This document shows positions 4,629 to 25,494 of a stretch of 64,000 bases of DNA, piece after piece (the stretch's first letter is position 1; every line of letters begins with the position of its first letter). This DNA is from Zhihengliuella halotolerans (GTDB taxonomy: Bacteria > Actinomycetota > Actinomycetes > Actinomycetales > Micrococcaceae), in contig NZ_SHLA01000001.1 of NCBI RefSeq assembly GCF_004217565.1, positions 2,728,001 through 2,792,000 of the forward strand, given 5' to 3'. The position numbers and the translations under genes are program-made. The notes under the pieces were generated by a model. It searched no databases, had not been told where the DNA came from, and worked only from the letters and a program-made list of their open reading frames with translations.

Positions 4629-5077
4629 GGGGTGCTCCTTGAGAACAACAGGGAAGAAAGGCTGATCGACGGCACACCCGGATGGCATGCGGCGGGCGTG
4701 CACCATGGCAATACGCTGCGCTGAGTCGCGAGGTCGTCGGCGACGTCAGTGTCGCAGTGGTCAGTACTTTCTTTAGACCGTGCACTTCCACGGTACGCGG
4801 GATCCGCGCGAATCTCCACGGGACGTGCACACTAGCCTCGGGCAACGAGCACTCGGCTCGGGAAACGCCGGATCGCGAAGGCCGGTTTCTGACTCACCAC
4901 GGAGAACACATGACGAGGTCTCCGAAGCCAGCCCTCTTGGGTGCTGTCTGGGCCAGTTGGCCGTCTTCGGAACCATGACGATAAGCGCCCTACTCGGCAC
5001 TGAATTCATCGGGCCGAGACCACGTAGGTCGCGCCCACCGACGTCGGACGCCTATCCGCGCGTCGACGCGCCGACGA
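4629..5077. other. Gene-free interval between malic enzyme and iclR
   Basis: No convincing coding frame is seen on either strand in these 449 bp. Two structured elements are visible. An inverted repeat ACCGTG-N6-CACGGT at 4777-4794 lies upstream of malic enzyme and could be an operator. A nested hairpin at 4921-4971 (TCCGAAG pairing with CTTCGGA, enclosing GGCCA-GT-TGGCC) lies about 100 bp downstream of the iclR stop and could end that transcript. Confidence 0.5.
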
Positions 5078-5794
5078 TCACGTCGTGGCCCCCGAAGCCA
5101 GCAGTTCTGCCAGCTCGGTCGCGGCTGCGCGCACGGCGTCGCCGTGCCGAGTGACCACCGTCTCGTCCATTCGAAAGCTCGGGCCGGCGATGCTGAGGGC
5201 CGCCACGACCTGCCCGTCGGGTGCCAACACGGGTGCTCCGATGACCGTCGCGTCTGAATCGACGACGGCGACCATGACGACGTAGCCAATCTCCGGGATA
5301 CGGCCCTCCAGGATTTCACCAGCGACTGATCCACCCATTGGAACGGTTCGCCCAGCCCAGTTGTCGAATCCGACATGCCTAATCGGCAAGGGGCTCTGCA
5401 CCTCACGCAGGAAGGTACAGGTGTTGGCTGGTCCCTTGACGGCCAGATAACTCGACTCCAGCGTCGCTCTGGTCAGCCTGTCCATGACGGGTCCGGACGC
5501 GTCGATCAAGTCCTCCACCCGTGCGCTTTCCGACGAGACGCGGGACTGAACGAAGCGCTGACCCAACGAGTACAGCGCGTCCGATGCCCGGGAAACATAA
5601 CCCCAGTGCTCCAGAGCGCGCAGCATGCGCATGGTTGTGCTCGTCGGCAGCTTGCTGGCGCGGGCGATGTCACTCAGTGCGACGGGGCCCTGCTCGACCA
5701 CATGGGTCAGCACCTCGAGCGCCCGATGAACGGCCTGCGGGCCCAAGGAGGCATCCACCTCGTTGCCTTGCGCCGCCCCCAGCTTGTCACCCAT
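5078..5794 (-). CDS. IclR family transcriptional regulator
   Basis: The 238-aa protein has an N-terminal winged helix (about 15-80; ALSDIARASKLPTSTTMRMLRALEHWGYV) followed by the IclR effector domain (about 95-235) with the typical VLAPDGQVVAALSIAGP stretch. It sits 38 bp behind the lyase-like gene in the same direction, and both are divergent from the quaternary-amine ABC importer. It is therefore the natural candidate for ligand-dependent control of both transcripts through the operator-like repeats at 7371-7401. The effector is unknown; the substrate or product of the lyase is the obvious guess. Confidence 0.88.
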   Translation of the reverse strand: MGDKLGAAQGNEVDASLGPQAVHRALEVLTHVVEQGPVALSDIARASKLPTSTTMRMLRALEHWGYVSRASDALYSLGQRFVQSRVSSESARVEDLIDASGPVMDRLTRATLESSYLAVKGPANTCTFLREVQSPLPIRHVGFDNWAGRTVPMGGSVAGEILEGRIPEIGYVVMVAVVDSDATVIGAPVLAPDGQVVAALSIAGPSFRMDETVVTRHGDAVRAAATELAELLASGATT

Positions 5795-5832: not shown

Positions 5833-7302
5833 CTAGCCAAGTCCCTGACCGACGGTTTCCCGTTGAGCTCCCCGCAGTACGCGGGCGAATTCAGGGATCA
5901 ACTGCTGCGCGATCTCCACGTCGCCGCGCAGATCGCGATCCTCGAACGCGGCTGGGAGCCGCTGCGCCACGTCGAACAACTCAGCCACTCCGGGCGAGAG
6001 CCGTCCGGCCGCTTTTCCAGACAACCTCAGTGCTCTGACGGCGACGAGGATCTCTGCAGACAGCATGACGCCGTATGCATCCAGCGCGCGAAGGAGTTGA
6101 CCGAGCGCCGTCGGAGCGAACGTAGCGTCTTCCTCGACGCCGCAGGACAACACGGCGCTGTGCGTCGATGCTGGTGCTGCGGCGGCGTGCACCTCACCCA
6201 TGGCACTGGCGGCGAGATACTCGACCACCATCGTGCCGGAGGCACCCCCGCCATGGGGAGCAAGGAATCGTGGCTGCCCGGAGAAGGAATCATCATTCAT
6301 GAAGCGCAGACGGGCCAGCATGAGCGGTGCCGTCTGGGCCAGCGCGATGCCCGTGGCGTCCAGTTCATGAGCCAGCCACGACTCGAAGAAGGCCCCGTGG
6401 TGGACCGCAACCTCACGCTCGAGGTCGAACCCGGGGTTCTCTCGCGACCGACTGACGAGAGTCTCCACTGCCTCGCGCAAACGCGTTGTCGCACAGGAGA
6501 GAACACTGATCGCGGGCAGGAAGGCCCGAAACGCGAATGGATCCTGAATCCGGGCGGACTCCCAGGAGGCATCGCCGAGGAGCCCGGCGAGGCGCTCCGC
6601 ATTCGCTGAAGCGGTTGGCATCGCCACAGCCACTGCCGCTTGCGGAGAGAAGGCTGCGGGGTTCGCTGACGAGGCGAACGCGGACAGGCCGAAGGCCGCC
6701 AGCGAGGCATCGATGAGCTGTTCGAGTCGAGAGACAGCTAGGGCCGCGCCACCCAAGGTCGGCGCGCTTGAACTCATGAACGGCAACGCGCTGTCTGCAC
6801 GGATAGGACCGATCGGCGTGAATGACTCCCCGCTGGTTGGACGCTCTCCAGCCAGCGCGAGGGCCACACCGGCGAGTGCCGGCAGATCTGCGGTGCCGAT
6901 ACCGCCGTACTGGCGGAGTTCGGGCAGGCTGTTGCCGGCGAGCATCCGTTCAAGACCGTCAATCAGCACGGGGTCAATGCCCGAACCCGGATGCAGGAGC
7001 TGATTGAGGCGCACCGCGAGCACGGCGCGAGTCACGTCCGCGCCGAGCGCAGGACCCGCATCAACCGCGTGACTGCGCAGCAGGTTCATACCGTGGGCTT
7101 CGGAATCGGCCCTGGCAGCCGACTCCCGATTCGCTCCGACGCCTGTGGAACGCCCGTACACGGGCGTGCGTTCGGCGATCTTGTTGGCCAGCTCGTAGTG
7201 CTGCTCGATACCCGCCCGCGCGGCGGCAGACACTCGGACATCGGCCCCGGCAGCAATGTCGGCGATCTCGTGAACGGTCAGCACTTTCGGGAGTGTGTAC
7301 AT
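5833..7302 (-). CDS. Histidine/aromatic ammonia-lyase homologue lacking the MIO triad
   Basis: The 489-aa protein aligns by eye with histidine ammonia-lyase along its length: VYGRSTGVG (Tyr49, catalytic Tyr region), AGNSLPE, IQDPFAFR (253-259, where HutH has QDPYSLR) and GVEEDATFAPTA (388-398, HutH GQEDHVSMAP). The segment that in HutH reads GSVGASGDLAPLAH reads GGIGTADLPALAG here (133-145). The Ala-Ser-Gly that cyclises to the MIO electrophile is therefore absent, and ordinary MIO chemistry is not expected. Ergothionase, which eliminates trimethylamine from ergothioneine, is a known HAL-related enzyme without MIO. With the divergent quaternary-amine importer, a betaine lyase is the leading hypothesis; a non-catalytic paralogue is possible. 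Confidence 0.8.
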   Translation of the reverse strand: MYTLPKVLTVHEIADIAAGADVRVSAAARAGIEQHYELANKIAERTPVYGRSTGVGANRESAARADSEAHGMNLLRSHAVDAGPALGADVTRAVLAVRLNQLLHPGSGIDPVLIDGLERMLAGNSLPELRQYGGIGTADLPALAGVALALAGERPTSGESFTPIGPIRADSALPFMSSSAPTLGGAALAVSRLEQLIDASLAAFGLSAFASSANPAAFSPQAAVAVAMPTASANAERLAGLLGDASWESARIQDPFAFRAFLPAISVLSCATTRLREAVETLVSRSRENPGFDLEREVAVHHGAFFESWLAHELDATGIALAQTAPLMLARLRFMNDDSFSGQPRFLAPHGGGASGTMVVEYLAASAMGEVHAAAAPASTHSAVLSCGVEEDATFAPTALGQLLRALDAYGVMLSAEILVAVRALRLSGKAAGRLSPGVAELFDVAQRLPAAFEDRDLRGDVEIAQQLIPEFARVLRGAQRETVGQGLG

Positions 7303-12643: not shown

Positions 12644-14143
12644 TTAGTTGGCGGATCGGTCGGCGAACCAGCCGGTGACCGCCGGTGCCGTGTTCTGGTA
12701 GATGTGCTTGGCTTCCTGGTACTCCGACAGGCCCATCGGGCCCAGCTCGCGGCCGACGCCGGACTGACCGAAGCCGCCCCACTCCGCCTGCGGCAGGTAC
12801 GGGTGGTAGTCGTTGATCCAGATGGTGCCGTGGCGCAGGCGCCCAGCGACCCGCTGTGCGAGGCCGGCGTCCTGGGTCCACACCGCGCCCGCGAGCCCGT
12901 AAACGGTGTCGTTGGCGATGGCGACCGCCTCGTCCTCGTCGGAGAAGGTCTCCACGGTGACGGTGGGACCGAACGCCTCGTCGGTGACAACCGACATGCC
13001 GCGCTTGACGTTGTCGATCACGGTGGGCAGGTAGTAGACGCCCGCGGACAGGCCCGCGCCGTCGTCGTCCGTGGCCCGGCGACCACCGCAGCGCACGCGC
13101 GCGCCCTCGGCGATACCGGCCTCGACGTACGCGTGCACCTTCGCCAGGTGCGCCTCGGAGATGAGCGGGCCGGTCTCGGCGTCGTCGTCGTACGGTCCGC
13201 CGATGCGGATCTGCTGGGCGCGCTCGACCAGCTTGTCCACGAAGCGCTCGGCGATGTCCTCGTGCACGATCAGGCGCGCGCCGGCCGAGCAGACCTGGCC
13301 GGAGTGCACGAACGCTGCGTTGAGGGCGTTGTCGACGGCGGCGTCGAAGTCCGCGTCGGCGAAGATCACGTTCGGGTTCTTGCCACCGAGCTCGAGGGCG
13401 ACCTTCTTAACCGTGCCGGCCGCGGCCGCCGCGATGACCTTGCCGGTGGCGAGCCCGCCCGTGAAGGAAACGAGGTCGACGTCCGGGTGCTCGGAGAGCG
13501 GGGCGCCGGCCTCTGGGCCCGTGCCCGTGACCAGGTTCGCGACGCCGGCGGGCAGGCCCAGCTCGTCGAAGACGTCCATCATCAGGATCGACGTCGACGG
13601 GGTGAGTTCGGAGGGCTTGAGCACGAACGAGCAGCCGGCAGCGATCGCCGGGGCCATCTTCCACGCGGCCTGCAGCAGCGGGTAGTTCCACGGCGCGATC
13701 ATGCCGCACACGCCCACGGGCTCGTAGACGATCCGGCTGAGGACCGCGTTGTCGTTGGCGTCGACAATCCGGCCGGCGTTCTGGCCCGCCAGGCGGCCGA
13801 AGAACTCGTAGCAGGCGGCGATGTCGTCCATGTCGATCTGCGACTCGACGAACCGCTTGCCGGTGTCGCCGGTCTCGGCCTTCGCGAACTCGTCTTTGCG
13901 CTCGCGGAGCCGCGCAGCGACCTTGAGCAGGAACGCCCCGCGCTCGGGCGCGGGCACTGAGGACCACACGCCGGAGTCGAACGCCTCGCGGGCGGCCGCG
14001 ATGGCGCGCTCCGAATCCGCGCGCGTAGCCTCGGAGACCACGGCGTACTCCGTCCCGTCGGCGGGGCAGACGATCGTGCGGGTGGCGCCGGATTCAGCGG
14101 CGGCCCACTGGCCGTTGATGTAGAGGGTTGAAGTTTTTGCCAT
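12644..14143 (-). CDS. betB: Betaine aldehyde dehydrogenase
   Basis: NAD(P)+-dependent oxidation of betaine aldehyde to glycine betaine. The 499-aa ALDH has the PWNYPL motif (Asn153), the general base in LELGGKNPN (Glu251) and the nucleophile in SGQVCSAGAR (Cys285). The C-terminal WGGFGQSGVGRELG is typical of the BADH group. ATG 14143 lies 4 bp after the betT stop, with GGAAGGA upstream. Because CodA can itself make glycine betaine, BetB may mainly clear released aldehyde. Confidence 0.92.
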   Translation of the reverse strand: MAKTSTLYINGQWAAAESGATRTIVCPADGTEYAVVSEATRADSERAIAAAREAFDSGVWSSVPAPERGAFLLKVAARLRERKDEFAKAETGDTGKRFVESQIDMDDIAACYEFFGRLAGQNAGRIVDANDNAVLSRIVYEPVGVCGMIAPWNYPLLQAAWKMAPAIAAGCSFVLKPSELTPSTSILMMDVFDELGLPAGVANLVTGTGPEAGAPLSEHPDVDLVSFTGGLATGKVIAAAAAGTVKKVALELGGKNPNVIFADADFDAAVDNALNAAFVHSGQVCSAGARLIVHEDIAERFVDKLVERAQQIRIGGPYDDDAETGPLISEAHLAKVHAYVEAGIAEGARVRCGGRRATDDDGAGLSAGVYYLPTVIDNVKRGMSVVTDEAFGPTVTVETFSDEDEAVAIANDTVYGLAGAVWTQDAGLAQRVAGRLRHGTIWINDYHPYLPQAEWGGFGQSGVGRELGPMGLSEYQEAKHIYQNTAPAVTGWFADRSAN

Positions 14144-14147
14144 GACC

Positions 14148-16301
14148 CTATCCTTCCTTTGCGGGCTCGGCGTCGCCGCCAGCCGGGTTCTCAGCCGGTT
14201 CTTCGGCTGTCTCGTAGTCGCCACCCCACCCGGTGGTGACGTTATGCGGTTCAGTAACGGTGCTGGTTGGCAGCGCTCCCGTGGTCTGGTGCAGGAACTC
14301 AAGATGAATCTCGTAGTGATCCAGCACGTCAGCGATGACTTGCTCCTGGCTCAGACCGTACAAGTCGTACCCGTAGCTTCCCTCCAGAGAGAAAGCCTCG
14401 AGCCGGTAGTAGCGGTCGCTGGCACTGGTCGCCCGTGCGTAGGACGGGATCTCATGTTGAACCGGGTACACCTGGTACTTGAAGTCCCGTTCGCCGTCGT
14501 AGTCGATGAACAAATCGACGGTGTCAATGCCGAAGGCGTCTAGGCGCTGAATGTTCAGCTTGGCAGCGACTCCCTGGCGTTCGAGCTCGGTTCTGACCTC
14601 CAACAAGGCCGGGCAAACGACCTCGGTCATGAAACGCTGGGTGGTCCGGCTGCCCGGGTAGCTCAGGGCACGCGAGAGGCGCTGACGCCAACCGCGACGC
14701 TGCTCGCCAGCCGCGTTGGCCCGCGACGAGAGCACTCCCGGCAGTCCGTGCCGGTAGGAATCGGCGAGAGCCGACTCGACACGCAATGCCTTGTACAGAC
14801 CCGCCATGATAAATATCAGCACGATCGAGAACGGCAACCCCATGATGACGGTGGCCGCTTGCAACGTCCCGACGCCGTCGACGATCAACATCGCGAGGGT
14901 CAGCAGTCCAGTCACCACGGCCCAGAAGATACGGAGCCACGGTGGACCGTCCGCTTCCGGGTCAGTCAGCCGGGAGGTGAAGTTGCTCATGACCAGAGCA
15001 CCGGAGTCGGCACTGGTGACGTAGAACAGCATGCCGGTGAACGTGGCGATCGCCGCGCTGATGATGACCCCCGGATATTGCTCGAGCAGTCCATAGAACG
15101 CTTGTTCCGGTTGGTTGATTGCGATCTCGGCGAATGCACCGTTTCCGCTCCGGACAACGTCCAGAGCACTGTTGCCGAAGATGGAGATCCACAGAGCAAT
15201 AAAGGCGAACGGCACGACGAGGACACCGGTCACGAACTGACGAATAGTACGCCCGCGGGAAATGCGGGCGAGGAAGAGTCCAACAAAAGGTGCCCACGCA
15301 ATCCACCACGCCCAGAAGAAGAGGGTCCAAGCGTTCAGCCAGTCGTCCGGACGATCATAAGCGAAGGTATCTAGGGCCATCCCCGGGAAGCGGGAAATGA
15401 GATCGCCGACGTTGTTCACGATCCCGTCGGCAAGGTACGTGGTCTTGCCTGCGATGAACACATAGACCATCAGGGCGATGGCCAGCAGCACGTTGAGCTC
15501 AGCGAGCCGGCGGATGCCTTTGTCGACACCGGACACCACAGACGCCGTCGCCATGATGACGGCCACCGCGATCAGTGCGACCTGCATAGCAGTGTTCTCC
15601 GGCAAACCGAACATGAAAGACAGCCCGTAATTGAGCTGCGCGACGCCGATACCGAGCGAGGTCGCAATGCCGAAGATCGTTCCAAACATGGCCGCGATGT
15701 CGACGGCGTCGCCAGCGGCACCGTGAATTCGTTTGCCGATGATTGGGTACAGGGCAGAACGAATGCTCAACGGCAGGTTGTGCCGGTAGGCGAAGTACGC
15801 GAGGGCAAGACCCATCAGGGCGTAGAGTCCCCAGCCGAGGATCCCGTAGTGGAAGAGCGTCCACACCATGGCTTGACGTGCGGCTTCGACCGTCTCACCT
15901 TCGCCAGTCGGCGGTTGGATGTACTGAGTGATCGGCTCAGAAACGGAGAAGAACATGAGATCCACACCGATGCCGGCCGCAAACAGCATGGCCGTCCAGG
16001 TGAAGAGGTTGAAGTGTGGCCGGGAGTGATCCGGCCCGAGTCGGGTCTTGCCGACCTTGCTGGCGGCAACGAAAATGACGAACCCTAGGACGACGACTAC
16101 CAGCAGCGAGTAGTACCAGCCGAAAGTGCCACCGACCCACGTCACGGCCGCGAAAATGGCATCCCGTGCGTTGTCCGGCGCAATCATCGCCCAGAGGGAA
16201 ATTGCCAGAACTCCCGCCGCGGAACCGATCAGGACGGGTTTGTTGACTTTGATCTTCGCCCTCCCGGGCGGTGCGTCAGTTGCAGTTGATTCAGTTGTCA
16301 T
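14148..16301 (-). CDS. betT: BCCT-family choline/betaine transporter with long C-terminal tail
   Basis: The 717-aa protein has 12 membrane segments of the betaine/choline/carnitine family. GIGVDLMFFSVSEP is the glycine-rich TM3 motif, and WAWWIAWAPFVGLFLARISRGRT is the TM8 signature whose tryptophans form the substrate cage. About 190 hydrophilic residues after the last TM match the osmosensing tail of BetT/LcoP proteins. The Asp in the first motif (usually Gly) is also seen in H+-coupled BetT, so proton coupling is more likely than Na+ (inference). ATG 16301 is the start just before the first hydrophobic segment. Its base composition looks less GC-rich than betB and codA (not computed). Confidence 0.92.
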   Translation of the reverse strand: MTTESTATDAPPGRAKIKVNKPVLIGSAAGVLAISLWAMIAPDNARDAIFAAVTWVGGTFGWYYSLLVVVVLGFVIFVAASKVGKTRLGPDHSRPHFNLFTWTAMLFAAGIGVDLMFFSVSEPITQYIQPPTGEGETVEAARQAMVWTLFHYGILGWGLYALMGLALAYFAYRHNLPLSIRSALYPIIGKRIHGAAGDAVDIAAMFGTIFGIATSLGIGVAQLNYGLSFMFGLPENTAMQVALIAVAVIMATASVVSGVDKGIRRLAELNVLLAIALMVYVFIAGKTTYLADGIVNNVGDLISRFPGMALDTFAYDRPDDWLNAWTLFFWAWWIAWAPFVGLFLARISRGRTIRQFVTGVLVVPFAFIALWISIFGNSALDVVRSGNGAFAEIAINQPEQAFYGLLEQYPGVIISAAIATFTGMLFYVTSADSGALVMSNFTSRLTDPEADGPPWLRIFWAVVTGLLTLAMLIVDGVGTLQAATVIMGLPFSIVLIFIMAGLYKALRVESALADSYRHGLPGVLSSRANAAGEQRRGWRQRLSRALSYPGSRTTQRFMTEVVCPALLEVRTELERQGVAAKLNIQRLDAFGIDTVDLFIDYDGERDFKYQVYPVQHEIPSYARATSASDRYYRLEAFSLEGSYGYDLYGLSQEQVIADVLDHYEIHLEFLHQTTGALPTSTVTEPHNVTTGWGGDYETAEEPAENPAGGDAEPAKEG

Positions 16302-16563
16302 CGCGCTTATCGCCTCACGTAAGTGCTTGTCTGTCTCGTTCTCGTACTGAAACGGAGAAGGAACCCGACCCCCTTGCTCCTTCGCCTCTGACACCCTATC
16401 GAAGCCCTTATGGCGCGTATACGCCGATAGCACAAGAGATTTGTGACCTCTTCCATCAGGGGTAGTGCTTAAGGTCATAATGGGGAGGAGGACGCTCGCT
16501 CGCGGCAAACACATCCGTGAGGCGGGGCGGAACGGGCCACACCTCGGACGACAGGCGGACACG

Positions 16564-16986
16564 ATGTCCAGAACCACCGGATCGAACACCACCGCGCTGA
16601 CTAAGGCGACCAACCACCCGGCACTGCCGGCGGAGGATGCTGCCAAGCTGGCCCGCGCCCTCGAGGAATCCGAGGACGTGACCGTCTTCGTCGACGGGAC
16701 GGCGCTTCGACTTCCGGCGGACGCGACCGCCGTCGTGCTGGACGTGCTCACGCGCATGGGCGCGGGCGAGGCCGTCACGGTGAGCACGGCGGAGGCGTGG
16801 CTGAACACGTCGCAGGCCGCGCAGCTGGCAGGGGTATCCAACACCTACATGCGGAACCTCACCGACGCCGGCGCCATCCCCGTGCACTACCGGGGCACGC
16901 ACCGCCGCATCCGCACCCAGGACGTGCATGCGTGGCTCGAGTCCCGCGCGGCGGCCGCGCACGACGCGGAGGAGGCCGACGGCTGA
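16564..16986 (+). CDS. Excisionase/antitoxin-type HTH DNA-binding protein, apparently without a toxin
   Basis: The 140-aa protein ends in a MerR-like/HTH_17 domain: WLNTSQAAQLAGVSNTYMRN (about 77-96) then PVHYRGTHRRIRTQDVHAWLESR. Its N-terminal half carries E-D-V-T-V-F-V-D-G-T-A-L-R-L-P, as in antitoxins that precede PIN-domain toxins in actinobacteria. No PIN gene follows: the next 250 bp hold only a 42-codon frame on the other strand. Start choice is uncertain; ATG 16480 is in frame and near a TAAGGT hexamer. Confidence 0.65.
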   Translation: MSRTTGSNTTALTKATNHPALPAEDAAKLARALEESEDVTVFVDGTALRLPADATAVVLDVLTRMGAGEAVTVSTAEAWLNTSQAAQLAGVSNTYMRNLTDAGAIPVHYRGTHRRIRTQDVHAWLESRAAAAHDAEEADG

Positions 16987-17245
16987 TCAGACGTTGACTC
17001 CGCGCTCGCGCAGCATGGCGAACCGCTCCCCCGTCAGCGCGGGCGCGGAAGCGTCGCTTTCGGCCAGCACCTCGGCTTGTTCGGGCCCCAGCCTTCCGTC
17101 GATTCGTCCTGTCACCTAGTACGTGTCCGGTCCCCAAGAAAACGTCCACAGAGTCCCTCGACTTTCTTGGCCAGAGAGAATTCCAACCCCCGCAGATGCT
17201 GGCGCTACGTCCGGGCGGTGGACGGGCGGGCCTAACATGGAGACC

Positions 17246-18745
17246 GTGTCCGATTTCCGCCGCCCCTCCCGCCGCGCCGTCGTAGGCGGGTTCACGTCGC
17301 TGGGCCTGCTGGCCCTGACGGGAACGTTGGCCGCCTGCGGCCGGCAGAACGAGATCCAGCTGGCCGCGGCCCCCGCGACCTCCCTGCCGATCCCTCCGGT
17401 CGCCGACTCGCGCGTCGAGGACGGCATACGGGTCTTCGAACTCGAGGCCCGGACCGGGACGCTTGATCTGGTGCCCGGGTTCCCCACGACGAGCGCCGGC
17501 TTCAATGGCCCTTACCTCGGCCCCACGCTGCGGGCCGAGCGCGGCGAGCACGTGCGCGTGAAGATAACCAACAGCCTGGATGAGGTCACCTCCGTGCACT
17601 GGCACGGAATGCACCTGCCGCCGGAGATGGATGGCGGACCGCACCAGCCGGTCGCCGCCGGGTCCACGTGGGAGCCCGAATGGCTCATCGATCAGCCGGC
17701 CGCGACCCTCTGGTACCACCCGCACCCGCACGGCGAGACGCAGCGGCATGTGAACCTGGGCCTGGCCGGAATGTTCATCGTCGACGATGCGGACGCTCCT
17801 GAGGGGCTGCCGTCCGATTACGGCGTCGACGACGTGCCGGTGATCGTGCAGGACAAGATGGTCGGGGACGAGGGCGACTTCCTGCTGGACAGCTCCGGCA
17901 ACGAGGTCGGCACCCTCGGCAAGACGCTCCTCGTCAACGGTGTCCGCAACGCCCAACTCGAGGTCGCGTCCCGGCGGATCCGCTTGCGCCTGCTCAACGC
18001 CGCACCCGCCCGGACCTTCAACTTCACCTTCGCGGACAGCCGCGAGTTCGCGCTCATCGCGTCCGACGGCGGCCTGCTCACCGCCCCCGTGCCGCTCACC
18101 TCGATCCGCCTGTCGCCGGCCGAGCGGGCGGAGATTGTGGTCGATATCGAGCCGGGCGAGCGGGTCATGCTCCGCTCGGCCGGGGTCGAGTTGGGCGCCG
18201 TCGCGGTACCGGCGGCATTCGGCGGGGACGACGAGTTCGACGTGCTCGAGCTGCGCGCGGCGGGCGAGCTGGCGCCGTCGTCGTCCGTACCGGAGACGCT
18301 GGCCTCGATCGAACGGCTGCGGGAGGACGACGCCGTCGGACTGCGGGAGTTCCGCCTCGCCGACCGGAAGATCAACTCCAAGGACATGGACATGGGGCGC
18401 GTCGATGAGATCGTGCGCGTCGGCACCACGGAGGTCTGGGAGGTGCGGAACACGAACCCGTACCCGCACAACTTCCATGTGCACGACGTCCAGTTTCAGG
18501 TGCTTGCGATCGACGGCGAGGAGCCGCCGCCGGAGCTCGGCGGTTGGAAGGACACGATCTATCTGGAACCGCGCCGCGTGTACCGGATCATCCTGCGGTT
18601 CGGAGACTACACGTCGTCTTCCGTGCCGTACATGTACCACTGCCACCTGCTGCTGCACGAGGACGAAGGCATGATGGGTCAGTTCGTGGTCCTCGAGAAG
18701 GGCGAGGCCGCACCGCTGCGGATCAGCATGGACCACGACCACTGA
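17246..18745 (+). CDS. Multicopper oxidase, Tat-type lipoprotein
   Basis: The 499-aa laccase/CotA/CueO-like enzyme has all four copper motifs: HWHGMH, WYHPHPHG, HNFHVHDVQF and HCHLLLHEDEGMMG, the last with a Met-containing T1 site. The N-terminus has a twin-arginine-like RRPSRRAVVGG followed by a hydrophobic stretch and a lipobox L-A-A-C (Cys31), so it is probably exported folded and membrane-anchored. GTG 17246 was chosen because TAACAT lies 7 nt upstream (leaderless); ATG 17237 would lie inside that -10. Likely roles are cuprous or metal ion oxidation, or phenol oxidation. No copper genes adjoin it. Confidence 0.9.
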   Translation: MSDFRRPSRRAVVGGFTSLGLLALTGTLAACGRQNEIQLAAAPATSLPIPPVADSRVEDGIRVFELEARTGTLDLVPGFPTTSAGFNGPYLGPTLRAERGEHVRVKITNSLDEVTSVHWHGMHLPPEMDGGPHQPVAAGSTWEPEWLIDQPAATLWYHPHPHGETQRHVNLGLAGMFIVDDADAPEGLPSDYGVDDVPVIVQDKMVGDEGDFLLDSSGNEVGTLGKTLLVNGVRNAQLEVASRRIRLRLLNAAPARTFNFTFADSREFALIASDGGLLTAPVPLTSIRLSPAERAEIVVDIEPGERVMLRSAGVELGAVAVPAAFGGDDEFDVLELRAAGELAPSSSVPETLASIERLREDDAVGLREFRLADRKINSKDMDMGRVDEIVRVGTTEVWEVRNTNPYPHNFHVHDVQFQVLAIDGEEPPPELGGWKDTIYLEPRRVYRIILRFGDYTSSSVPYMYHCHLLLHEDEGMMGQFVVLEKGEAAPLRISMDHDH

Positions 18746-18783: not shown

Positions 18784-19785
18784 TCATGTCCTCAGCAAGC
18801 TCAGCCGGCTGAGGAACCGTTCCGCATCCCGCGGCATGCCACCCCGCGTCGTCCACTCCTCGAACGGCAGGTCGGCCGTGACGTCGAGCCGGTGCTGCGC
18901 GTCGACGAGCACATCCACCAGGTACGCGAACCGCTGGAATCCCTGCTCGTCGATCTCCCCCGGCGCCGGCACGTCCGTCAGTTCCCAGCGCGTGTACCGG
19001 GACGCCAGCGCCACGTAGTCCGCCGCCGACAACGGCGCCTCGCACAGCTGCGCGAACGTCCCCGACAGCACGCCGCGCCCCGCATCCGCGGCACGCACCG
19101 GCACCGTCCGGCTCCCCAACACGACGACGTCGCCGCCCCAGCCGTCGTCACACCGGCCGGCCGTCCAGGCACCCGCAGCGAAGCCCCCGTCCGCGGAGCC
19201 GGCGACGCGATAGTCCGTGCCGGGCACCACCTCGACAACGGCGAGGTGCGCACGGATCTGCTCGATCGCCGGGAGCATGTGGTGATGGAAGAGCGGGTTG
19301 GGCAGCAGGTCCTCCGGCGCGTAGTTCGAGGTGACGACCAGGCCGATCCGCGCCCGGAGAAGGACGTCCAGCAGCCGGCGGATCAGTATGGCGTCTCCGA
19401 CGTCGTGCACGTGGAATTCGTCGATGAAGAGGAGACGCGCCTCGCCGATGAGGCGGGCGATCGCGTCCGCCGCCGGTTCGGCGCGGGCGGCGACGGCCGC
19501 GTTGATCTCGGCGAGGAAGGAGTGCATGTGCACGCGGCGCTTGGGCCCCGGGGCTGCGGCGAAGCAGGCGTCGGCCATCCAGGTCTTGCCGCGACCGACC
19601 CCGCCGAACAGGTACACGCCGCGATCGTGGGCGGCGGTGAGTTGCATGACGGCGGAGCGCTGGCCGGGGTCGAGCGTTCGGCCGCCGACCTCGAGTCCAG
19701 CCGCCAGTTCCTCGGTGTCGACGCCGGGCCACAGGTTTGGGCGCCGCCCGGGCCACTGCATTCCGACTCCCTCCGCCGATTTCAC
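18784..19785 (-). CDS. zapE: AFG1/ZapE-family ATPase
   Basis: The 333-aa AAA-type P-loop ATPase has Walker A GGVGRGKTWM (about 62-71) and Walker B ARLLFIDEFHVHD (about 113-125), followed by the family's TSNYAPEDLLPNPLFHHHMLP stretch. E. coli ZapE binds FtsZ and supports division under stress; mitochondrial AFG1 is related. The initiating ATG lies about 60 bp from the divergent tetR gene and the two share the region with the palindromic operator at 19804-19821. A shorter start eight codons in is possible. Confidence 0.85.
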   Translation of the reverse strand: MKSAEGVGMQWPGRRPNLWPGVDTEELAAGLEVGGRTLDPGQRSAVMQLTAAHDRGVYLFGGVGRGKTWMADACFAAAPGPKRRVHMHSFLAEINAAVAARAEPAADAIARLIGEARLLFIDEFHVHDVGDAILIRRLLDVLLRARIGLVVTSNYAPEDLLPNPLFHHHMLPAIEQIRAHLAVVEVVPGTDYRVAGSADGGFAAGAWTAGRCDDGWGGDVVVLGSRTVPVRAADAGRGVLSGTFAQLCEAPLSAADYVALASRYTRWELTDVPAPGEIDEQGFQRFAYLVDVLVDAQHRLDVTADLPFEEWTTRGGMPRDAERFLSRLSLLRT

Positions 19786-19803
19786 CCTCTACTTCTCTAG
19801 AGT

Positions 19804-19821
19804 ATGTAGACTACTCTACAT
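19804..19821. promoter_or_regulatory. Palindromic operator candidate between zapE and tetR
   Basis: ATGTAGACTACTCTACAT has 7-bp arms with a 4-bp spacer and sits in the divergent intergenic region, 25 bp before the tetR start. The position and symmetry suit autoregulation by the TetR protein and possible control of zapE. Confidence 0.6.
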
Positions 19822-19845: not shown

Positions 19846-20406
19846 ATGGCGGGAACGGACCGGCGCGAGGCGATCGCCGAAGCGGTGCTCGAGCTCGTCT
19901 CCCACGGAGGGGCCCGCGCGCTCAGCCACGGCGCGATCGACACGCATCTGGGCCTGCCGCGCGGCTCGTCGTCGTACTACTTCCGGACCCGGACACACCT
20001 CATCGCCGCTGCTGCTGACCGGCTGATCGAGCGGTCGCGGGCGCAGTTCATCGCCCTGACCTCAACCATGCCCCCGGCGCCGGCCCCGCAGCAGGCCGCC
20101 GAGGTGATCGCCGGGTACACGGACCGGCTCGTGACGCGGCGCGTGGGCGAGGTGCGGGCGCGGTTCGCGCTGGCGCCGGAGGTTGACGATCCGGTGGTGC
20201 GCGAACATTTGACCCGCGCGTTCTTCTCGCCGGACGCGGCCGCCGCGCTGTGCGAAACGCTGGGGCACCCCGTCCCGCACACCACCGCCCGCGGGCTGCT
20301 CGCCTACTTGGAGGGTGTGGCCGCGCAGGCTGCACTCGGGGTCCCGGACGTGCGCGCCGACGTCCCCCTTCTCGAACGCCTGCTCACCCCGCCGGAGCCG
20401 CACTAG
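19846..20406 (+). CDS. TetR/AcrR family regulator
   Basis: The 186-aa protein has an N-terminal TetR helix-turn-helix (about 6-50; GARALSHGAIDTHLGLPRGSSSYYFRTRTHLI) and a helical ligand domain with a late ALGVPD region. An SD (GAGGAAGGG) precedes ATG 19846. The palindrome 25 bp upstream is its likely operator. Its stop codon TAG is part of the 21-bp repeat that flanks the following ABC cassette, so tetR probably once lay directly before the methyltransferase gene. Confidence 0.85.
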   Translation: MAGTDRREAIAEAVLELVSHGGARALSHGAIDTHLGLPRGSSSYYFRTRTHLIAAAADRLIERSRAQFIALTSTMPPAPAPQQAAEVIAGYTDRLVTRRVGEVRARFALAPEVDDPVVREHLTRAFFSPDAAAALCETLGHPVPHTTARGLLAYLEGVAAQAALGVPDVRADVPLLERLLTPPEPH

Positions 20407-20423
20407 ACTGCACGCGTGAGCGA
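20403..20423. repeat. 21-bp direct repeat, copy 1 (left edge of ABC cassette)
   Basis: The sequence beginning CTAGACTGCACGCG and ending TGAGCGA is identical to 23395-23415. It contains the tetR stop codon and a ghost start (GTG AGC GA) that leads into non-coding sequence antisense to the ABC ATPase gene. The 8-bp palindrome CACGCGTG lies inside it. Confidence 0.85.
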
Positions 20424-20430
20424 GCAAGCC

Positions 20431-21090
20431 TCAATCGCGTTCGACGAGCTTCCCGCCCGCCAGCACCAGGCGGTAGTCGCACGCCTGGGCAACGGTCTCA
20501 CTGTGCGTGGCGATGATGAACTTGCTGCCGCGGTCCTGCAGATCGGCGAAGAGGTCCAGAATGCCACGCTCGGTGGTCTCGTCGAGCGCGCCCGTCGGCT
20601 CGTCCGCCAGCACGACGTTCGGTCGCTTCGCCAGCGCCCGGGCGATCGCCACGCGCTGTGCCTCGCCTCCGGAGAGGTGCTGGACGCGCTTCTGTTCGAA
20701 ACCGCTCAGCTGCACTTCGGCGAGGCATTGGGAGATCAGCGCCGACTTGTCGCCGCGCCCCGCGATGCCCAGGCGGACGTTCTGCGCAACGTTGCGGTCG
20801 TCGAGCAGGTCGTAGCTCTGAGTCACGAATCCGATGTGCTTCATCCGGAAGTCCGCCGACGCCTGAGAATTCTGCGGCACCAGGTCCTGACCGTGGTAGT
20901 ACCGGCCCTCGTAGGCGACATCGAGCCCGGCAAGGACGCGCAGCAGAGTGCTCTTGCCGGATCCGCTGCGCCCCAGAATCGCAATGGAACGATCGCTCTC
21001 GAACATGGACAGGTCCAGCCCGTCGAAGAGGAGCCGACGCTGCCCGTTGGGCTCGCGGATGGACTTGGTGATGGATTCGAGCTGCAGCAT
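20431..21090 (-). CDS. ABC transporter ATP-binding protein (MacB/LolD-like)
   Basis: The 219-aa ATPase has Walker A GRSGSGKST, the Q-loop VTQSYDLL, the signature HLSGGEAQRVAIARAL and Walker B VLADEPTGALDE, a combination typical of the LolD/MacB/FtsE export-type branch. ATG 21090 overlaps the preceding permease stop (TGATG). It should power the two FtsX-like permeases encoded upstream. The cargo is unknown; candidates are a lipoprotein, peptide or bacteriocin. It is the last gene of the cassette. Confidence 0.88.
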   Translation of the reverse strand: MLQLESITKSIREPNGQRRLLFDGLDLSMFESDRSIAILGRSGSGKSTLLRVLAGLDVAYEGRYYHGQDLVPQNSQASADFRMKHIGFVTQSYDLLDDRNVAQNVRLGIAGRGDKSALISQCLAEVQLSGFEQKRVQHLSGGEAQRVAIARALAKRPNVVLADEPTGALDETTERGILDLFADLQDRGSKFIIATHSETVAQACDYRLVLAGGKLVERD

Positions 21091-22370
21091 CAGAGACTGG
21101 CCGCCTTTCCGGAGTCGACGTCGAGGCAACGCCTGAGGAGATAGTGCTGGTGGGCCGAGTCGAGAACCACCAGGAGGACAAAAACCCACAGCGCCGTGAA
21201 CAGTGCTCCAGAACTGCTCGCCGGCACCATGCGCACGGCGACCGCAGTGGCGAGAAACGTCAGCCCGTAGCCGATCATCGAACTGCGCACGAACATCCGG
21301 CTGATCGCATGCTGGCTGCGACCGAGCCGCAAGAACACCAGCGTCTTATTGCGGCGTCGCCGCATGAGCTGCCAGTTCGCGAACCCGCTAGCCACCACGA
21401 CGCCCAGGAAGAGCATGGCGCCGATGGCCTGAACAAGCGCAGCATTGCCCTGGATGACCGACTTCACCAGCGAGAACTGCACCAGGTACGTCGGCAAATT
21501 CAGCAGCGAGTACTGGTCGAAGCCGCTCGCTTCCGACGCGGCGGCGATTTCGCGGAGTACTTGATCAGCACTCAGCTCTTTCGGAGCAGCCACATTGGCG
21601 TTGATCATTTCGAAGTAGAGCATCCCGGCCAGAGACTGCTCGTCGGCGGCGAAGTCGCCTAGTACGGACGGGTAGGGAATCAGCACGTAGTGGTCCAAGT
21701 ACTGGTTCAGCTCGCCCTGATAGTACATAGACGCACGCTCATCGAGGATGCCAGCAATCTCAAACTGTCTCGGCTCGAACCAGAGGTATCCGTCGATCAG
21801 ATCACCCACCTCATAGAGGTCGGAGTAGCTGCTTCCGAGTAGGACCGGGACAGTTCCGCTGGAGTAGTCGACCGCGTCCCAGTCGAAGACCCGGCCTTCA
21901 GCGACCTCCAACCGGTAGAAGTCGAAAGCCGCTCGATTGATACTCATCGACTTCACGTCGAGGACAGTGTTTCCATCCGGACCCTCAAACGGGCCATTAA
22001 CAGTCATCTCGTCGCCGTACCCGTGCTGGAAAGCGGTGTCACCCGGAAAGTCCCGGAGAGGCAGAGCGCTGGCGAACGCTGACAGCAGGTCGAACTCCTT
22101 GTTCGCGTTGAGTTCGTTGTAGAAATCGCCGAGCTGTTCGAGATTCTCCCGGGAATGCCGGAACTCGTCGAAGGCATCCGGCTCGGCCAGCATGTCGACG
22201 ATCCCGTACATGTTCACGTCCGCGTCCTGGGAGAAACTCTGGTCAACGGCCGCATTGCTCGACGACGTGAAAGACGACACGTTGAAGACGGTCAACACCA
22301 GCAAGGCCCAGACCGCCGCCTTGCCACCCAGAATCGCCCAGTTGCGGCGCAGATCGAAGATCAGCTCCAT
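21090..22370 (-). CDS. ABC permease with large extracytoplasmic domain (FtsX/MacB-like), 1
   Basis: The 426-aa protein has one N-terminal TM (about 12-32), an extracytoplasmic domain of some 250 residues, then three C-terminal TMs (about 305-410), the MacB/FtsX topology. It overlaps the next permease by 10 bp and the ATPase by one base. The extracellular domain is unusually acidic and aromatic-rich; I do not recognise it. Codon choice looks less GC-extreme than the flanking tetR and methyltransferase genes, in line with a transferred cassette. Confidence 0.75.
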   Translation of the reverse strand: MELIFDLRRNWAILGGKAAVWALLVLTVFNVSSFTSSSNAAVDQSFSQDADVNMYGIVDMLAEPDAFDEFRHSRENLEQLGDFYNELNANKEFDLLSAFASALPLRDFPGDTAFQHGYGDEMTVNGPFEGPDGNTVLDVKSMSINRAAFDFYRLEVAEGRVFDWDAVDYSSGTVPVLLGSSYSDLYEVGDLIDGYLWFEPRQFEIAGILDERASMYYQGELNQYLDHYVLIPYPSVLGDFAADEQSLAGMLYFEMINANVAAPKELSADQVLREIAAASEASGFDQYSLLNLPTYLVQFSLVKSVIQGNAALVQAIGAMLFLGVVVASGFANWQLMRRRRNKTLVFLRLGRSQHAISRMFVRSSMIGYGLTFLATAVAVRMVPASSSGALFTALWVFVLLVVLDSAHQHYLLRRCLDVDSGKAASL

Positions 22371-23290
22371 GAGCGCACCCCCTTGCGCGGAACGACGGCC
22401 AGCACGAATACGACAACGACGATCGCCGCCAGTGCTGCTTCGATTCGGAGGACGTTGCCGACCGAGACCAGCGGATCACGTGCAAAGGCCACGATGAGGG
22501 CAGCAGGCAGCCCTGCCCCGACAGCGACACCCACGACCTGGCCCGCTGACCAGGCCGCCGTCCTGGCTCGCCGGTGTCCCAGCAGGTGGAGAACTTCGTG
22601 GCGCCGTCGCAGAAGGGTTGCCGCAAGCAAGCCCGTCATGGCCGCTCCGATCGTCACGATCGTGAACCCGAGGCCGAGCAGGATCGGTGAGACATAGTCG
22701 ATATTCGTTCGCTTGTTTGTGGAACCGTCTATTGACGCGACTCCGTCCGCTCCGAAGGCGTCAACGTATCGCGCGTGCGCATCCGGCAGATCCACGACGA
22801 CGTCGCCGAGGCCGCCGCTCGTGCGGTCGGGGTCGCTGATCAAGACGTCGGCTGAAAGCAGACTTTCCTCGTTGGTGCCGAGTCGGCCGGTCACCTCGTA
22901 GGACTCGCCGTCGTACTCGAAGTATTCAACACCGCCGCGTTCGACCACGGGAATCTCCGACCCGACGATCGCTTTGTCGTGCTCGCCTGAGGCGAAAACT
23001 CGGCCCTCGTACAGCGGCAGCGAAAGTCCGGATGCGTCTTCGATCAGCAGGTTCCGCACTCGGGCGTTGCCGGGGAGATGCACGTAAACACGTGCCTCCG
23101 GAGCGAGTTCGTGCGCATTGGCCGCGATCCGCTCGGCATCACCGCTCACCTGGATGCTCTCGGTCGAATAGAGCTTGTTGCCCTCGAGAGTGATGGCCTC
23201 CTGCTTCACGCTGTAGACCGTCAACGCGGACCCCAACAGCATGAACAGCACCAGCAGCGAGCCTGTGACCAGCCCGTTTCGATTATTCAT
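22361..23290 (-). CDS. ABC permease (FtsX/MacB-like), 2
   Basis: The 309-aa protein has an N-terminal TM (about 7-27), an extracytoplasmic domain of about 170 residues, and three TMs after residue 200 (PILLGLGFTIVTIGAAMTGLLAA and two more). It probably pairs with the neighbouring permease as a heterodimer. ATG 23290 was chosen for its GGGGGA upstream and position just before the first TM. It is the first gene of the three-gene cassette, which is transcribed against both neighbours. Confidence 0.75.
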   Translation of the reverse strand: MNNRNGLVTGSLLVLFMLLGSALTVYSVKQEAITLEGNKLYSTESIQVSGDAERIAANAHELAPEARVYVHLPGNARVRNLLIEDASGLSLPLYEGRVFASGEHDKAIVGSEIPVVERGGVEYFEYDGESYEVTGRLGTNEESLLSADVLISDPDRTSGGLGDVVVDLPDAHARYVDAFGADGVASIDGSTNKRTNIDYVSPILLGLGFTIVTIGAAMTGLLAATLLRRRHEVLHLLGHRRARTAAWSAGQVVGVAVGAGLPAALIVAFARDPLVSVGNVLRIEAALAAIVVVVFVLAVVPRKGVRSWS

Positions 23291-23394
23291 CGTCCCCCAT
23301 CGCCTGCTTCGACCATCGCGCAGACCCAGCAAGAGACAATACAGACCCCGCGACGCCGAACAGATTTCGACTCACCGGATTCGGGCGGGCGGGC

Positions 23395-23415
23395 CTAGAC
23401 TGCACGCGTGAGCGA
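23395..23415. repeat. 21-bp direct repeat, copy 2 (right edge of ABC cassette)
   Basis: Identical to 20403-20423. Here the repeat is functional: TAGACT is a -10 hexamer, 6 nt later GTG 23408 starts the methyltransferase, and the repeat ends in its second and third codons. Confidence 0.85.
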
Positions 23416-24010
23416 AGAATCCACAACGGCCGCCTACTCTGCGCGCGCCGACGAATACACGAGACTGCTCGGATCGATCGAGGACACCCACGCGCAAGAC
23501 CGCGAGTTGATCGCCGCGTGGGCAGACACGGCGCCGGGGCTGATCGTCGATGCCGGCTGCGGCCCCGGGCACTGGGCCGGATGGCTGCACGGGCGCGGAC
23601 AAGACGTCGTCGGGATCGACTTGGTGCCCGAGTTCGTCGCCGTCGCGCGGGAACGGTTCCCCCAGGTCCGCTTCGAGCGCTCCTCCCTGGCCGACGTCGC
23701 GACCGGCGAGCCGGCCGGCGGAATCCTCGCCTGGTACTCGCTCATCCACACACCACCGGAGGACGTACTCGACATCTTGGTCGGCTTCCACACGCGCCTC
23801 ACGCCCGGAGGAACGGCGCTGCTCGGATTCTTCGAAGGTCCCAGCCGTCAGCAGTTTCACCACGCCGTGGCACCCGCCTATTACTGGTCTCTCGAGGAAC
23901 TCTCCGCCCTGTTGCGCGAGGCCGGCTTCGCCGTCGGCGCCACGCACCGTCGCACCTCCGCCGAGCACCGCCCGCACGCCGCGATCCTCGCGCGCAGGCC
24001 CGCCCGATAG
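23408..24010 (+). CDS. Class I SAM-dependent methyltransferase
   Basis: The 200-aa enzyme has motif I VDAGCGPGHWAGWL (about 46-59), an acidic GIDLVPEFVAVAR loop for the SAM ribose, and the post-motif RFERSSLAD. Substrate unknown. The start is leaderless (TAGACT, 6 nt, GTG). The promoter and first codons lie in the repeat bordering the ABC cassette, so the gene survived the insertion intact. Confidence 0.85.
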   Translation: MSEESTTAAYSARADEYTRLLGSIEDTHAQDRELIAAWADTAPGLIVDAGCGPGHWAGWLHGRGQDVVGIDLVPEFVAVARERFPQVRFERSSLADVATGEPAGGILAWYSLIHTPPEDVLDILVGFHTRLTPGGTALLGFFEGPSRQQFHHAVAPAYYWSLEELSALLREAGFAVGATHRRTSAEHRPHAAILARRPAR

Positions 24011-24051: not shown

Positions 24052-25494
24052 ATGCAGCATTTCGACCTGATCATCATCGGTACCGGATCCGGCAACTCGA
24101 TCCTCGACGAGCGCTTCCGCGGCAGGAAGGTCGCCCTCATCGAGCGCGACAAGTTCGGCGGAACGTGCCTGAACGTCGGCTGCATCCCCACCAAGATGCT
24201 CGTCTACACGGCCGACGTCGCGGCCACGCCCTCCCGCTCCAGCCGGCTCGGCGTCGACGAGACCCTCGACAACGTGCGCTGGTCCGACATCCGCGACCGC
24301 ATCTTCGCCGACCGGATCGACCAGATAGCCGCCGGCGGACGCGACTACCGTCTGAACCACGAGGACAACGCCAACGTCACCGTCTTCGAAGGCGACGCCC
24401 GCTTCACGGGCCCGAAGCAGCTCACCGTCGCCCCGAACGACGGCGGCACGGCGACGACCATCACGGGCGACGAGATCGTGCTCGCCGCCGGCGGCCGGCC
24501 CTCCGTACCGGACATCGAAGGCCTGGCCGACGTCGACTTCCACACGAGCGACACCGTCATGCGCCTCGAGCGCCTGCCCGCATCCATGACGATCCTCGGC
24601 AGCGGCTTCATCGCCGCCGAGTTCGCGCACGTGTTCGCCGCGCTCGGCGTCGCTGTCACGCTCGTCGCCCGCTCCGGCGCACTGCTGCGCGCACAGGACG
24701 CGGAGGTCTCCGAGCGCTTCACCGAGATCGCGCGCGGCAGCTGGGACGTCCGGCTCAACACTGCCACCCGGAAGGTGGAGCAGTACGACGGCGGCATCCG
24801 TCTGCACGTCGAATCCCCTGATGGGCCGGGCGTCATCGAGTCCGAGGTCCTCCTCGTCGCGACCGGCCGGACTCCGAACACCGACCAACTCGACGTGGCC
24901 GCCGGCGGCCTCGAAACCGACGAGGCGGGGCTGCTGAAAGTCGACGAATTCCAGCGCGCAGTGGTCGGCGGCACCCGCGGCGAGAACGGCGCGGTGGCGG
25001 GCGGCGCCGTCGTGCCGGGCGTGTGGGCGCTCGGCGACATCTGCTCGCCGTACCAGCTCAAGCACGTGGCCAACCACGAACAGCGCGTGGTCCAGCACAA
25101 CCTCGTCACCCCGGATGCGCTGGTGGCGTCCGACCACCGGTTCGTCCCGCACGCGGTCTTCAGCTCGCCGCAGGTCGCGTCCGTGGGACTGACGGAGGAG
25201 CAGGCCCGCGCGCGGGGGCTCGAGATCTCGGTCGCGCGGCAGGACTACGGCGGCATCGCCTACGGCTGGGCGATGGAGGACACCACCGGGTTCGCGAAGC
25301 TCCTCGCGGACAAGAACACCGGGATGCTGGTCGGCGCGCACATCATCGGGCCGCAGGCCTCGAGCCTGCTCCAGCCGCTCATCCAGGCGATGAGCTTCGG
25401 CCAGCCGGTGAAGAACCTGGCGCGCGGGCAGTACTGGATCCACCCGTCACTGCCGGAGCTGATCGAGAACGCCCTGCTCCAGCTGGACGCCTGA
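24052..25494 (+). CDS. mtr: Mycothione reductase
   Basis: A NADPH/FAD disulfide reductase that regenerates mycothiol from mycothione. The 480-aa protein begins with DLIIIGTGSGNSILDERF (FAD), the redox pair GGTCLNVGCIPTK (Cys39, Cys44), a second nucleotide site ILGSGFIAAEFAHVFAALG, and the catalytic His464/Glu469 in WIHPSLPELIEN. GSGNS and the NALLQL ending separate Mtr from lipoamide and mercuric reductases. An upstream TAGGCT and an AGAGGA SD support ATG 24052. It fits an actinobacterium using mycothiol. Confidence 0.92.
   Translation: MQHFDLIIIGTGSGNSILDERFRGRKVALIERDKFGGTCLNVGCIPTKMLVYTADVAATPSRSSRLGVDETLDNVRWSDIRDRIFADRIDQIAAGGRDYRLNHEDNANVTVFEGDARFTGPKQLTVAPNDGGTATTITGDEIVLAAGGRPSVPDIEGLADVDFHTSDTVMRLERLPASMTILGSGFIAAEFAHVFAALGVAVTLVARSGALLRAQDAEVSERFTEIARGSWDVRLNTATRKVEQYDGGIRLHVESPDGPGVIESEVLLVATGRTPNTDQLDVAAGGLETDEAGLLKVDEFQRAVVGGTRGENGAVAGGAVVPGVWALGDICSPYQLKHVANHEQRVVQHNLVTPDALVASDHRFVPHAVFSSPQVASVGLTEEQARARGLEISVARQDYGGIAYGWAMEDTTGFAKLLADKNTGMLVGAHIIGPQASSLLQPLIQAMSFGQPVKNLARGQYWIHPSLPELIENALLQLDA

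Follow-up and report, generated by a model that had tools for sequence, protein, structure and literature searches.

A three-gene ABC cassette between two copies of an overlapping tetR/methyltransferase junction in Zhihengliuella halotolerans

A 64-kb stretch of the 3.58-Mb genome of Zhihengliuella halotolerans (G000), hereafter the window, carries a cassette of three ATP-binding cassette (ABC) transporter genes between a TetR-family regulator gene (tetR; 19846..20406, + strand) and a gene for an S-adenosylmethionine (SAM)-dependent methyltransferase (23408..24010, +). Each border of the cassette holds a copy of one exact 21-bp direct repeat, CTAGACTGCACGCGTGAGCGA, which spans the end of tetR and the start of the methyltransferase gene. 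Comparison with four other Zhihengliuella genomes (G001; the sister genome, G002; Z. salsuginis KCTC 19466, G003; and G004) gives good support to this anatomy and to a history in which the cassette was inserted and the junction duplicated. What we say below on how the ends were joined is a proposal.

The duplicated junction and its single-copy counterpart

The repeat had been described in an initial annotation of the window as two perfect copies bounding a three-gene cassette, and both copies were exact, on the + strand, at 20403-20423 and 23395-23415, 2992 bp apart. The left copy contains the tetR stop TAG (20404-20406), the hexamer TAGACT and, from 20416, a ghost of the methyltransferase start, GTGAGCGA (GTG-AGC-GA). 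In the right copy the TAGACT -10 element (23396-23401) is followed by a spacer and the working methyltransferase GTG (23408), six bases downstream. This assignment of the two copies, made in the same annotation, is borne out by the sequence. The tetR stop TAG also supplies the first three bases of the TAGACT -10 element, so that the end of tetR and the promoter of the methyltransferase gene overlap. The TAGACT and GTG of the right copy have the layout of a leaderless-type actinobacterial promoter, which suggests that this promoter is active. From the ghost GTG an open frame of 242 codons runs antisense to the ABC ATPase gene (20416..21144, +) and is probably spurious; the ghost promoter of the left copy could yield antisense RNA against the same gene.

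No exact direct repeat in the window was longer than CTAGACTGCACGCGTGAGCGA, the runners-up measuring 17 bp, and the match around the two copies extended to 32 bp at 88%. In 60 Markov-5 simulations of the window, 21 bp was never reached (maximum 20 bp overall, and 19 bp for copies within 6 kb of each other). The length of the repeat alone is only modestly above chance. Across the whole G000 genome, with up to 2 mismatches allowed, CTAGACTGCACGCGTGAGCGA matched at those two places only, and it is therefore neither a dispersed element nor the end of a mobile one.

We take as decisive evidence for a duplication the homology with a single-copy junction in Z. salsuginis. There the methyltransferase gene (76% identical) comes immediately after a tetR homologue (84%), and their junction holds one copy of the 21-bp sequence, identical to those of the window; no permease A homologue was found anywhere in that genome. 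A blastn alignment of G000 with G003 stops at 20423, where the left copy ends, and restarts at 23395, where the right copy begins. The gap at the insert thus measures 2971 bp in the window and -21 bp in G003, a 21-bp overlap. The empty site that the annotation had proposed to look for in relatives therefore exists, and it supports the view that the junction was doubled around an insert of about 2.97 kb that left both neighbours intact.

To place the repeat among other inserts, 294 kb of G000 was aligned by blastn with a 282-kb G003 contig, the single contig to which these statistics are limited, and 13 clean inserts were found on the window side. This insert had an exact 21-bp end repeat; the other 12 had end repeats of 4-9 bp. 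Because those 12 carry such short repeats only, a general long-duplication integrator in the genus is unlikely. The exact alignment borders, the single copy in G003 and the short repeats at the other inserts together establish that the duplication is real and exceptional.

A chance resemblance between two promoters, each with TAGACT and a GTG start, would require no duplication at all. Leaderless TAG(A/G)CT-N5-8-(A/G)TG motifs do recur in the window, and part of the repeat could converge in this way. Beyond the motif, however, sharing was confined to the two repeat copies, which agree at 21/21 positions including the spacer and first codons, and the identical single junction copy in G003 refutes the idea, to which we give almost no credence.

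The annotation also pointed to a palindrome within the repeat, CACGCGTG, as a possible mark of the target. CACGCGTG occurs once elsewhere in the window and nothing ties it to the insertion; this suggestion is not supported. The same palindrome was rejected as a TetR operator, since the tetR promoter has a different one: the inverted repeat TAGAGT-N9-ACTCTA lies at 19798-19818, in the divergent AFG1/tetR promoter, its arms kept in G003 and its spacer changed. It is the probable TetR operator.

The insert and its relatives

The insert absent from G003 (20424..23394) is 2971 bp long, or 2992 bp including one repeat copy, and contains an ABC ATPase gene and two permease genes, all on the minus strand. 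The ATPase (20431..21093, -; 220 amino acids, aa) matched ABC_tran with 100 bits; its best NCBIfam match, TIGR03608 (L_ocin_972_ABC), scored 169.3 bits, below the cut-off of 254.85. Permease A (21090..22370, -; 426 aa) is of the MacB/FtsX type with a hypervariable extracytoplasmic part and barely passed MacB_PCD (27.4 bits against a cut-off of 27). The smaller permease B (22361..23290, -; 309 aa from an ATG at 23290) is a second FtsX-type permease and had no Pfam match; homologues gave weak FtsX and MacB_PCD matches. With a LolD/MacB-like ATPase and permeases of the MacB periplasmic core and FtsX type, the cassette has the composition of a MacB/FtsX-type ABC transporter. Both G+C and third-position G+C were lower in the cassette than in its neighbours, a comparison that had been proposed as a check on its origin. 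Gene content in and beside the insert included no transposase or integrase, as noted earlier. Its ends bore no convincing terminal inverted repeats, the sole candidate nearby (I20) being asymmetric and of low complexity and hence rejected.

Of 245 genomes of the family, 4 had a permease A homologue, as did 5 of 396 genomes of the order. In G002, and at five distant loci in the Micrococcales, the ABC genes come after a gene for a secreted peptide, and plasmids of Paenibacillus polymyxa and Sarcina sp. (Bacillota) have the same four-gene order. A search for the cassette with other flanks, also suggested at the outset, thus located it elsewhere in the Micrococcales and on two Bacillota plasmids, following a peptide gene. 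The peptide genes lie at 5023-5526 (-) of L023/L065 in G002, in loci L059-L063, and at 1841-2245 of L089 and 1786-2190 of L091. Their products share the conserved stretch HTGKAE...HGWTTW...YHYT...SGRKWG...TYYGK and had no match in Pfam, NCBIfam or PDB. We note a peptide family of about 130-170 aa (GGWSE, HTGKAE, HGWTTW, YHYTRARLE, SGRKWG, TYYGK) that stands beside a split, MacB-like ABC unit, both in Micrococcales and on plasmids of Bacillota.

In the window, the stretch where relatives carry this gene (23291..23394) is 104 bp long and the gene is absent. No homologue of the G002 secreted peptide was found across the G000 genome, at the locus or elsewhere, and the gene is likewise missing at the locus in G004. 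Because it is missing in the window and present in relatives, the insert is probably what is left, for immunity or transport, of a lactococcin-972-like arrangement, a unit orphaned by the loss of the peptide gene. The export role in the initial label is uncertain: the nearest arrangements are peptide-plus-ABC units with presumed immunity.

The likeness to lactococcin 972 is partial. As in lactococcin 972 and streptococcin B loci, the order in the relatives of the cassette is secreted peptide, membrane component, ATPase; the cassette ATPase has L_ocin_972_ABC as its best family and is 32% identical to the pBL1 ATPase. Pneumococcus strains without a functional peptide have been reported (PMC11796350), a situation resembling that of the window. 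The membrane and ATPase genes of lactococcin 972-like loci are presumed to act in immunity or transport, without direct proof (PMC11796350, PMC4055356), and their roles in lactococcin 972 loci have been described as unverified (PMC11796350). In contrast, the cassette has two separate permeases where pBL1 has one 648-aa membrane protein, to which the cassette permeases had no detectable homology; its ATPase falls below the curated TIGR03608 cut-off, and the window has no peptide gene. The peptide of the relatives was rejected as a lactococcin 972 (hhalign probability 2.9%; no Pfam or NCBIfam model matched). On these comparisons the cassette should not be filed as a member of the lactococcin 972 loci.

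A gene-swapping hotspot

The locus is a gene-swapping hotspot with conserved edges, formed by helix-turn-helix (HTH) and BCCT transporter genes on the left and by an oxidoreductase and a NUDIX gene on the right. Between these edges G001 has a siderophore-type ABC operon and no cassette. G003 has a multicopper oxidase gene, AFG1, tetR and the methyltransferase gene, and G000 has the same genes plus the cassette. In G002 a DUF222 gene is followed by the cassette, the peptide gene and the methyltransferase gene, and in G004 the cassette stands beside a multicopper oxidase remnant. The ABC cassette is thus found at this locus, in the same orientation, in three species (G000, G002 and G004). The earlier proposal of an insertion stands, and the picture of a one-off newcomer at a random site does not.

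Upstream of the same methyltransferase gene, the G002 cassette has the right copy only (18/21 identical) and a different left flank; the G002 genome lacks a tetR orthologue and any close orthologue of AFG1. The annotation had held that ABC genes lying here without the repeat would speak against its history. G002 is partly such a case, but its left flank has been replaced and the left copy may have been lost with it.

A tree built from 8.4 kb of sequence near the locus joined G000 with G002 (95.8% identical), then G003 (88%), then G001 and G004. By parsimony this suggests that the cassette was gained on the stem of G000 and G002. Permease A of G000 differs from that of G002 mainly in the extracytoplasmic part, at both the amino-acid and third-position level: identity at third codon positions was 0.35-0.52 in the middle of permease A and 0.75-0.87 in the ATPase. 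We also observed that window positions 21541-22738, covering the extracytoplasmic part of permease A and the end of permease B, are far more diverged from G002 than the two ends of the unit. This pattern is a sign of recombination inside the ABC unit and suggests an exchange of specificity alleles in permease A.

Among the neighbouring genes, the left edge is represented by a conserved HTH gene (16540..16947, +), identified through the Pfam match of its G004 homologue, and the right edge, as seen in G001, by a gene for a pyridine nucleotide-disulphide oxidoreductase (24052..25494, +), presumably mycothione reductase. The multicopper oxidase gene (17123..18745, +), its function named from sequence, is intact in G003; the gene for an AFG1-like ATPase (18784..19785, -) has an orthologue in common with G003 only. 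The BCCT transporter gene (14000-16250) is closer to G003 than to the sister G002 and has a G+C content below its surroundings, probably the result of a separate local replacement. A mosaic G000 genome with a G003-like left half was considered and rejected: the BCCT gene is nearer G003, the HTH gene (16540-16947) is nearer G002, and there is no simple breakpoint.

Proposed capture into an overlapping junction, and its rivals

The account that we favour, at roughly even chances, is that the three-gene ABC unit was captured without a transposase into the compact tetR/methyltransferase junction, that the junction was doubled, and that both genes were kept by selection. The incoming unit would be the likely immunity/transport half of a bacteriocin-like secreted-peptide system without its peptide gene. 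One of its ends, or both, could have been joined in a transposase-free way, for example by homologous recombination on one side and illegitimate recombination on the other. Because the tetR stop and the methyltransferase -10 element share TAG, an insertion spares both genes only if the overlap stands on both sides; selection would retain only an event that doubled the junction and so preserved both neighbours. The left copy would now merely terminate tetR, and the right copy start the methyltransferase gene. This account is favoured by the exchange of whole gene blocks between species at the locus (cassettes in G000, G002 and G004; the ABC operon in G001).

A weaker case of this kind was seen at a second stop/-10 junction, in G002. 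A RidA-like (L-PSP) gene (L065, about 6680-7190) lies there between the methyltransferase and oxidoreductase genes, flanked by imperfect copies (16/22 bp) of the junction between the methyltransferase stop and the TAGGCT -10 element of the next gene, a junction that both the window and G003 have in one copy.

Homology-facilitated illegitimate recombination has been described in E. coli conjugation (PMC3240628) and put forward to explain orphan immunity genes in the T6SS arrays of Vibrio cholerae (PMC5361080). The likeness lies in one homologous anchor and one illegitimate join, orphan protection genes and modular exchange at one locus. Unlike those cases, the process is applied here by analogy only, and it need not leave identical 21-bp copies.

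Several observations weigh against capture. The immunity function of the unit is read from gene order only. The RidA-like example falls short of a perfect match and could in part be due to chance. We looked in G002 for a decayed left copy and rejected it: the weak alignment (p about 0.05) was not significant, with scores as good in 112 of 1058 control windows. We found no Ku gene in G000, G001, G002 or G003, and its absence from G000 makes a classical Ku end-joining capture unlikely. Among the five Zhihengliuella genomes, a Ku gene was seen in G004 only (G004:C11:415052-415588). Finally, the two G000 copies are identical to each other and to the G003 copy, and the G002 right copy differs at 3/21 positions, which looks more like one sequence duplicated than two diverged alleles brought together.

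This last contrast, which favours a target-duplication process, makes a lost or trans-acting recombinase a serious rival, if an improbable one. A transposase or site-specific recombinase would have inserted the cassette, leaving the 21-bp copies as a long target duplication or as attL/attR cores around a mobilisable remnant. Integrase cores include lengths of 21 bp, which the copies fit. Two perfect copies flank the insert exactly, its G+C and third-position G+C lie under those of its neighbours, and the same unit occurs on Bacillota plasmids. As with insertion sequences and cis-mobilisable att-flanked elements, direct repeats flank the insert and a one-copy empty site exists in G003. Unlike such elements, the cassette has no transposase, integrase, terminal inverted repeats or second location. 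No recombinase gene was found, and by gene content neither the insert nor its borders hold an integrase; nor does the target lie in a tRNA gene, and there is accordingly no tRNA att site. The cassettes of G002 and G004 have no such flanks, and the recurrence of the cassette at one locus and in one orientation in three species argues against free transposition.

Slightly less probable again is an ancestral cassette that G003 lost by recombination between the 21-bp copies, restoring a perfect empty site. In G004, outside the group of G000, G002 and G003, the cassette shares this locus and orientation and stands beside the multicopper oxidase remnant, which allows such an older presence and so also counts against the capture account. 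Loss would, however, leave the origin of the two copies unexplained and require unconstrained bases to have stayed identical over a longer time, and the cassette is missing in G001 too.

In an unlikely extension of the capture account, gene blocks would enter packed actinobacterial junctions by a general, transposase-free route that duplicates about 20 bp over a stop and an overlapping -10 element. If true, genes would be added without breaking either neighbour, and the cassette and the RidA-like insert of G002 would be two cases. The peptide-plus-ABC unit itself is widespread in Actinobacteria and Bacillota but apparently uncatalogued; two Zhihengliuella species have versions of it that lack the peptide and may serve immunity alone. 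The locus, for which the empty site is available, preserves a clean natural example of genes gained at a junction where stop codon and promoter overlap, and shows what an insertion at such a junction must do to be tolerated.

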